NCBI RefSeq assembly: GCF_010727945.1
Contig: NZ_AP022569.1
Coordinates: forward strand, 3,224,001-3,288,000
Direction of reading: 5' to 3'
DNA: 64,000 nt
Source of the DNA: Mycobacterium cookii
GTDB lineage: Bacteria; Actinomycetota; Actinomycetes; Mycobacteriales; Mycobacteriaceae
Below, piece after piece: positions 6,523 through 7,920 of the stretch (position 1 is its first letter; each line of letters opens with the position of its first letter). Below the pieces are notes generated by a model. That model was not told the DNA's origin, made no database searches, and saw only the letters and a list, made by a program, of their open reading frames with translations. Made by a program: the position numbers and the translations under genes.

Positions 6523-7920
6523 ATGTTGAGCAGTGACATTCCGACCACCAAAACCCCGCTGACGGGTTTCGGCCGGACCGCACCGTCGGTGGCGGACGTG
6601 TTGTCCACACCCGACCCCGAGGTGATCGCCAAGGCGGTCGCCCAGGTTGCCGACGGCGGCGCGGGGCAGTCGAAGAGCCGGGGCGTGATCGCCCGCGGGC
6701 TGGGCCGCTCCTACGGCGACAACGCCCAAAACGGCGGCGGTCTGGTGATCGACATGACGCCGCTGCACAACATCCACTCGATCGACTCGGCCACCCGACT
6801 GGCCGACGTGGACGCCGGGGTGAGCCTAGATCAGCTGATGAAGGCCGCGCTGCCGTTCGGCCTGTGGGTGCCGGTGCTGCCGGGCACCCGGCAGGTCACC
6901 GTCGGTGGCGCGATCGCCTGCGACATCCACGGCAAGAACCACCACAGCGCGGGCAGCTTCGGCAATCACGTCGTCTCGATGGAACTGTTGACCGCCGACG
7001 GGCAGATCCGCCACCTCACCCCCGAAGGTGACGAGGCCGATTTGTTCTGGGCCACCGTCGGCGGCAACGGCCTGACCGGCATCGTGCTGCGGGCCACCAT
7101 CGCGATGACGCCGACCGAGACGGCGTACTTCATCGCCGACGGCGTCGCGACCAAAGACCTCGACGAGACCGTCGCCGTCCACCTCGACGGCAGCGAGGAC
7201 AAGTACACCTATTCCAGCGCCTGGTTCGACCTGATCAGTCCGCCGCCGAAACTCGGCCGGGCGTCGATCAGCCGGGGCAGCCTGGCCACGCTCGATCAGC
7301 TGCCGCCGAAGCTGGCCAAGAACCCGCTGAAATTCGATGCGCCGCAACTACTTACGGTGCCCAACGTCTTCCCGATCAGCGCGATGAACAAGCTGTCGTT
7401 CATGGCGATCGGCGAGGTCTACTACCGCCTGGGCGGGACGTACACCGGCAAGATCCAGAATCTGTCGCAGTTCTACCACATGCTCGACCTGGTCAGCGGG
7501 TGGAACAATGCTTACGGACCAGCAGGTTTCGCGCAGCATCAGTTCCTGGTGCCGCCGAATGCCATGGAAGAGTTCAAGGCCATCATCCGGTGGATCCAGA
7601 CTCAGGGCCATTACTCGGCGCTGAACGTGTTCAAGCTTTTCGGTCCGGGCAACCGGGCACCGCTGAGTTTCCCGATGGCCGGCTGGAATGTGGCGATGGA
7701 TTTCCCCAACAAGCCCGGCATCAATGCGTTCCTGAACGAACTCGACGCCCGGGTGATGGAATTCGGCGGCCGGGTGTACACGGCGAAAGACTCCCGGGTG
7801 AGCGCCGACAACTTCCACGCCATGTACCCGCGGATCGACGAGTGGATTGCGTTGCGCCGCAAAGTCGATCCCACTGGGGTCTTCGTCTCGGACATGGCCC
7901 GACGTTTGGAGCTGCTGTAA
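6523..7920 (+). CDS. dprE1: Decaprenylphosphoryl-beta-D-ribose 2'-oxidase DprE1
   Basis: A 465-residue FAD oxidoreductase (vanillyl-alcohol oxidase fold). It oxidises decaprenyl-phosphoribose at C2', the first half of epimerisation to decaprenyl-phosphoarabinose, the sole arabinose donor for the wall. FAD-binding segments are visible: ARGLGRSYGDNAQNGGG near residues 57-73 and LPGTRQVTVGGAIACDIHGK near 123-142. The C-terminus MARRLELL is as in M. tuberculosis. The start MLSSDIP matches the family (MLSVGAT). The notable change is at GWNVAMDF: residue 391 (codon 7693-7695) is Ala, where M. tuberculosis has Cys387, the covalent target of benzothiazinones. dprE2 follows with no gap. Confidence 0.97.
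   Translation: MLSSDIPTTKTPLTGFGRTAPSVADVLSTPDPEVIAKAVAQVADGGAGQSKSRGVIARGLGRSYGDNAQNGGGLVIDMTPLHNIHSIDSATRLADVDAGVSLDQLMKAALPFGLWVPVLPGTRQVTVGGAIACDIHGKNHHSAGSFGNHVVSMELLTADGQIRHLTPEGDEADLFWATVGGNGLTGIVLRATIAMTPTETAYFIADGVATKDLDETVAVHLDGSEDKYTYSSAWFDLISPPPKLGRASISRGSLATLDQLPPKLAKNPLKFDAPQLLTVPNVFPISAMNKLSFMAIGEVYYRLGGTYTGKIQNLSQFYHMLDLVSGWNNAYGPAGFAQHQFLVPPNAMEEFKAIIRWIQTQGHYSALNVFKLFGPGNRAPLSFPMAGWNVAMDFPNKPGINAFLNELDARVMEFGGRVYTAKDSRVSADNFHAMYPRIDEWIALRRKVDPTGVFVSDMARRLELL

Follow-up and report, generated by a model that had tools for sequence, protein, structure and literature searches.

We analyzed the dprE1 gene in a 64,000-nucleotide stretch of the genome of Mycobacterium cookii (contig NZ_AP022569.1, positions 3,224,001 to 3,288,000 of the forward strand; hereafter, the window). 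Its product, DprE1 (decaprenylphosphoryl-beta-D-ribose 2'-oxidase, an essential enzyme of the arabinan pathway), lacks the cysteine (Cys387 in M. tuberculosis) that is bonded by covalent benzothiazinones, such as the anti-tuberculosis candidates BTZ043 and PBTZ169 (PMC12906241), and contains alanine instead. The gene is present in a single copy at the native locus position, and its genealogy is discordant with those of other genes. It appears quite probable that this pattern goes back to one main Cys-to-Ala origin inside Mycobacterium, after which the diverged allele replaced the native copy in many lineages. Taken alone, Ala at position 387 is a known natural target-site insensitivity; what is new is that the trait is out of step with species descent and seems to have moved as a replacement copy of one gene.

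The evidence for this reading comes primarily from a comparison of gene trees. Eighty genomes (40 Ala and 40 Cys; long contigs favoured) were picked by hand among the Mycobacterium matches listed, the window was added, and 14 kb around dprE1 plus rpoB were taken from each genome; after removal of G263 and of G320, in which rpoB is split over frames, 79 remained (40 Ala, 39 Cys). With the trait codon and three codons on either side removed, the dprE1 tree splits exactly into Ala and Cys types, with one change and support of 100, and IQ-TREE also yields one change. The same labels require 10 changes on the rpoB tree, at least nine of them forced by well-supported (starred) branches; 9 changes on the dprE2 tree, which does not follow the Ala/Cys split; 13 each on the aftA and embC trees; 13 on the tree of the gtrA-like gene upstream of dprE1 (73 rows); and 11 on the tree of the concatenated rpoB, dprE2, aftA and embC sequences, again with at least nine forced by starred branches. 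Of the six genes compared, only dprE1 has a discordant genealogy. When third codon positions only are used, dprE1 again shows a single change, compared with 13 for rpoB, 10 for dprE2, and 12 each for aftA and embC, and five segments of dprE1 analyzed separately give 2, 2, 1, 1 and 1 changes. Starred branches that clash with starred branches of the concatenation make up 18/41 in dprE1, 6/54 in rpoB, 6/34 in dprE2, 3/48 in aftA and 2/56 in embC, counts that favour the latter four genes because these belong to the concatenation. Among balanced two-state residues, 12 of the 29 in dprE1 and none of the 72 in the other four genes change at most twice on their own tree and at least nine times on the concatenation. 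When the dprE1 tree was constrained to keep each of five mixed rpoB clades intact, the approximately unbiased (AU) test rejected the constraint in four of the five cases.

In mixed-type sister pairs, sequence identity drops locally at dprE1. In genome pairs with a concatenation identity of 0.87-0.90, that of dprE1 is 0.876 for pairs of the same type (n=64) and 0.774 for mixed pairs (n=19), and the respective values for dprE2 are 0.883 and 0.867. In mixed pairs, dprE1 stays flat at 0.75-0.78 while the concatenation identity climbs from 0.79 to 0.90; in same-type pairs, it climbs from 0.80 to 0.88, and dprE2 climbs in mixed and same-type pairs alike. Between the sister genomes G394 (Ala) and G175 (Cys), identity is 0.761 for dprE1, 0.858 for dprE2 and 0.856 for the embC stretch; the corresponding values for the Ala/Ala pair G394/G387 are 0.887, 0.848 and 0.829, and the window and G282 (Ala/Ala) are 0.844 identical in dprE1. 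Two other Ala genomes, G322 and G151, have a dprE1 identity of 0.846 versus 0.94 for dprE2, suggesting that exchange occurs within the Ala type, too. With respect to locus position, every one of the 40 Ala loci fetched has dprE1 at most 64 bases from dprE2; in 4 of the 40 Cys loci (L165, L167, L168, L191), the two genes are 2.9-4.9 kb apart, which is seen in none of the other 76 fetched loci.

The frame of the window gene is open from its ATG at 6523 to the stop codon ending at 7920. The encoded protein scores 789.9 bits against the DprE1 equivalog family NF053785 (cut-off 500), contains the flavin adenine dinucleotide (FAD)-binding domain (PF01565), and aligns over residues 1-465 with residues 1-461 of the solved M. 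tuberculosis DprE1 (PDB 21gq and others; E ~1e-235). In this alignment, residue 391 of the window protein, around which the sequence reads SFPMAGWNVAMDFPNKPG, pairs with M. tuberculosis residue 387 across a four-residue insertion. A preliminary description of this DNA had identified codon 391 (gcg) as Ala at the benzothiazinone target position, and both the sequence and the PDB alignment bear this out: the 387 equivalent is Ala, not Cys, so that the protein lacks the cysteine by which a covalently inhibitable DprE1 is recognized. The M. tuberculosis motif given there, GWNVCVDF, was imprecise, the solved sequence reading GWNICVDF, and the rest of the active site, described as conserved, is so for the most part: among 32 listed pocket positions, 28 are identical to M. 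tuberculosis, including Y60, K134, Q334, Q336, K367, N385 and K418, and, besides 387 (C to A), positions 184 (I to V), 322 (E to G) and 325 (R to N) differ. The genome (5,318,517 bp, one contig) encodes a single DprE1, the five other matches being partial and 28-31% identical, and the genes directly downstream, dprE2, aftA and embC, constitute an arabinan gene neighbourhood.

Between 40 Ala-clade and 36 Cys-type mycobacterial proteins, there are 16 near-fixed differences, 387 included, nine of which map to the later part of the protein (M. tuberculosis positions 316, 322, 335, 338, 341, 353, 362, 381 and 387); the allele is therefore a co-inherited package and not a single point change. Position 325 (N329 in the window) is not near-fixed: all Cys proteins have R there, and those of the Ala clade have N, Y or K. 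The window protein has nine of nine linked residues (F16, L237, M320, G326, H339, P345, W357, A366 and A391 in window numbering), and belongs to the Ala clade with either the trait codons (DNA) or the trait columns (protein, 100/100) removed. In a mixture-model tree of 79 proteins chosen from 121, the bootstrap of which is not fully settled, the mycobacteria come together (85/98, not starred) and the mycobacterial Ala clade (22 rows, 100/100) is located beside four Cys genomes (G022, G073, G150 and G372; 95/99), its nearest Cys relatives, which already share several of the linked changes; the Ala copies of other genera are found elsewhere. The Ala alleles of presumed rapid growers, as labelled by rpoB clade, are nested inside those of the presumed slow growers (95/86), which hints at a direction.

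A family search covered 151 genomes of 30 genera and detected DprE1 in 150 of these. Among 40 DprE1 sequences from 38 genomes of 24 other genera, 36 have Cys and 4 have Ala. In two genomes from two further genera, G533 (L282) and G470 (L302), Ala (GWNVAMDF) is present in the only strong DprE1 match, apparently with an origin separate from that of the mycobacterial Ala clade; in the genus denoted g23, genomes G507 and G484 encode a full-length extra Ala DprE1 (GWNVAFDF) in addition to a Cys copy adjoining dprE2. The genes around these extra copies, judged from the open reading frame lists, encode lactate-utilisation-like proteins, TetR-like regulators and acyl-CoA dehydrogenase; no biosynthetic gene cluster was seen in the 14 kb around each copy in this reading, which involved no family search. 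A family-wide second lineage joining the mycobacterial Ala proteins with those of other genera appears in a quick tree of all 121 proteins only and is absent from the mixture-model tree, and is accordingly not advanced here.

The Ala type is common in Mycobacterium. Of the 80 named loci kept from 375 relatives found, 77 have Ala and 3 have Cys (L077, L085 and L086), a count that is biased because GWNVAMDF was one of the six search seeds. When 396 evenly sampled Mycobacterium genomes were searched, an exact residue-neutral DprE1 motif matched in 347 and its Cys version in 236; the 347 motif-positive genomes comprise 192 with Cys and 155 without it, and the non-Cys codons are all GCN, by eye, among the matches listed. 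Comparison of the tables by eye indicates that 44 of the 49 genomes missed by the residue-neutral motif match the Cys version, and 46 of the 49 have a strong DprE1 protein match, a single one in 45 of the 46. The Ala type thus accounts for about 155 of the 396 sampled genomes (39%). A few of the Cys-motif matches may be decoys, and G020 has one extra; a count based on an Ala-codon pattern (209/396 genomes) was unusable given that a second motif elsewhere also matched. As a separate observation, G014 and G126 each have two Cys-type motif matches, which might represent a duplicate gene, a decoy or contamination.

Under the scenario of a single main origin followed by replacement, Cys would have changed to Ala once, on the main mycobacterial Ala branch and along with the package of linked changes, and in many lineages the diverged allele would then have displaced the native dprE1 in place, most likely through homologous recombination of a tract of about one gene length. 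Several observations weigh against this scenario or limit it. At the strictest synonymous sites, namely, third positions at invariant residues (189 columns) and fourfold sites at invariant residues (87), dprE1 shows 3 and 7 changes, respectively, and the signal is therefore less clear there. The fifth AU test did not reject the constraint (p 0.345), even though the log-likelihood fell by 417. The contrast in identity is weak for the pairs G045/G228 (0.784 in dprE1, 0.799 in dprE2 and 0.858 in the embC stretch) and G168/G234 (0.734, 0.748 and 0.767), and modest for the window and its Cys relative G060 (0.749, 0.767 and 0.817). The genome sample was hand-picked, half Ala and half Cys; three of the four concatenated genes come from the dprE1 locus, and the fourth, rpoB, has itself been described as moving between mycobacteria (PMC5742357). 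One genome, G263 (L156), combines A391 with the Cys-type residue at the other eight linked positions and falls in the Cys lineage in both protein trees; its Ala is a separate, independent substitution on a Cys-type background. Finally, the quick tree places the Ala clade differently from the mixture-model tree, so that the root of the clade is less certain than its unity.

Alternative explanations have to be weighed against the same data. The two deep dprE1 lineages, together with the two g23 genomes that carry a Cys copy plus an extra Ala copy, could be taken as traces of an ancient duplication that gave rise to two early mycobacterial paralogs, one or the other of which was lost in each lineage. 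This possibility appears unlikely: none of the 396 genomes has Ala and Cys motif matches together (with the exact residue-neutral motif, which missed 49), the 40 fetched Ala loci are all at the native place beside dprE2, and the mixture-model tree nests the Ala clade within mycobacterial Cys types and puts the g23 extra copies elsewhere. Convergence, whereby Ala and the linked residues would have arisen many times under the same selection such that the protein tree groups sequences by function, draws on the demonstration by G263 and the other genera that Ala can arise separately, and on the seven changes at strict fourfold sites; nevertheless, it is largely refuted by the third codon positions, which recover the same single split, and we consider it very improbable. 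The two types differ little in GC content at third codon positions (GC3; 0.885 in Ala, 0.894 in Cys), which also speaks against convergence; a composition artefact was rejected on the same grounds.

The preliminary description treated the residue as a species trait. Its calls of Ala and of predicted insensitivity are supported, but the discordance of the trees points to whole-gene exchange, which it overlooked. Strictly vertical inheritance, under which some species simply have Ala, is indeed compatible with the clustering of the types on rpoB well beyond shuffled labels (10 changes versus a mean of about 27), which implies that much of the inheritance is vertical between swaps; as a complete account, however, it is refuted by the at least nine switches forced by well-supported branches, compared with one change on the dprE1 tree, and can hardly be credited.

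In our preferred reading, carriers of the Ala allele would be intrinsically insensitive to drugs that bond Cys387, yet DprE1 would still be a target for non-covalent inhibitors. For the strain of the window, such insensitivity is inferred from the minimum inhibitory concentrations (MICs) of other species; in predicting it, the preliminary description is supported by these published in-vitro values. Natural resistance has been attributed to Ala in M. avium, as that description mentioned, and to Ser in M. aurum (PMC3206020); the latter, also given there, agrees with the article, but the M. aurum record LT549889.1 (L057) has Ala. The resistance of M. abscessus has been ascribed to Ala at the Cys387 position, and the non-covalent compound OPC-167832 was active against this species in vitro, without efficacy in mice (PMC9765218). 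According to Table 1 of PMC10106926, the PBTZ169 MIC exceeds 32 ug/mL for M. scrofulaceum, M. avium, M. intracellulare, M. abscessus and M. chelonae, is <=0.01 for M. kansasii, M. marinum, M. gordonae, M. fortuitum and M. gilvum, and is <0.016 for M. xenopi. Among the species in that table, the DprE1 sequence was read only for M. scrofulaceum (L020), which has Ala; four Mycobacteroides loci (L079, L080, L082 and L084), two of which bear the title Mycobacterium sp., are kin of M. abscessus by sequence and also have Ala. Results in mice argue against a simple path from residue to resistance: PBTZ169 lowered the counts of M. abscessus and M. chelonae and was bactericidal against both, its action on M. 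avium and on the in-vitro-susceptible M. fortuitum was only bacteriostatic (PMC10106926), and it was not bactericidal against the Cys-bearing M. ulcerans (PMC7494103). The residue at 387 thus matches in-vitro MICs, not animal efficacy.

The features that bear on this analysis are compiled in the table. Apart from these, the window contains a gene for a major-facilitator transporter (PF07690; 13853-15286, minus strand) between embC and embA, the best NCBIfam relatives of which are multidrug efflux pumps, below the cut-off; in a sample of 80 Mycobacterium loci, of which 76 reach 1.5 kb or more beyond embC, G282 (L143) is the only one that also has a transporter in this position. A glycine-rich repeat protein, presumably PE_PGRS-like, is encoded at 1394-5256 on the minus strand and is spread across more than one reading frame.

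Features of the dprE1 locus in the window and of the extra DprE1 copies in genus g23 (coordinates refer to the window unless a locus is given)
Feature	Coordinates	Strand	Evidence or remark
gtrA-like membrane gene upstream of dprE1, control gene	6086..6490 (start codon provisional)	+	PF04138
dprE1, Ala-type allele	6523..7920	+	465 aa plus stop; NCBIfam NF053785, PF01565, PF04030, PDB alignment, tree position
dprE1 stretch with allele-linked M320, G326, N329, H339, L342, P345 (M. tuberculosis 316, 322, 325, 335, 338, 341)	7480..7557	+	
gcg (Ala) at codon 391, corresponding to Cys387 of M. tuberculosis	7693..7695	+	sequence and alignment
dprE2, enzyme of the next step	7921..8703	+	NF053786, 411.6 bits
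aftA, control gene	8704..10590	+	PF12250, PF12249
embC, control gene	10590..13856	+	PF04602, PF14896, PF17689
Extra Ala DprE1 copies, genus g23	L307 6651-8612; L310 7247-8689	-	no dprE2 within 14 kb

The published replacements of Cys387 (Ala in M. avium and M. abscessus, Ser as reported in M. aurum) involve the same residue and the same expected loss of the adduct but are described species by species; here, Ala marks one diverged allele whose recurrence within the genus does not follow descent. Searches of open-access literature, judged by titles and the openings of abstracts, listed no report of dprE1 exchange between mycobacteria, and the novelty of this finding is provisional given that the marker paper, Incandela 2013, is known to us only as a citation. 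That study reportedly employed dprE1 as a taxonomic marker in mycobacteria. It thus also makes use of dprE1 variation, whereas in the present trees dprE1 misplaces species when the allele types differ; dprE1 would be an unsafe phylogenetic marker. The gene has also served as one of several markers (PMC4524478). Exchange of an essential gene between mycobacterial species has a parallel in M. yongonense, which carries rpoB from M. parascrofulaceum (PMC5742357); that case involves two species, whereas the dprE1 allele is present in about 39% of the 396 sampled genomes, with at least nine switches among 79.

Replacement of an essential enzyme time and again by the same diverged allele suggests that something in the environment selects for it. 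One tentative and rather doubtful possibility is that microbes in the environment produce natural covalent DprE1 inhibitors, nitroaromatic ones for instance, and that these drive the spread of the Ala allele, in which case the extra Ala copy in g23 would be a parallel target duplication; natural nitro compounds have been docked on DprE1, in silico only (PMC12906241). If so, the Ala allele would represent pre-existing target-replacement resistance passed among environmental mycobacteria, and its distribution could guide the way to natural DprE1 inhibitors of a class as yet unknown. If insensitivity is indeed carried by an allele that can be transferred, in a gene that is essential, the species by itself would not be predictive, and dprE1 would have to be read directly.
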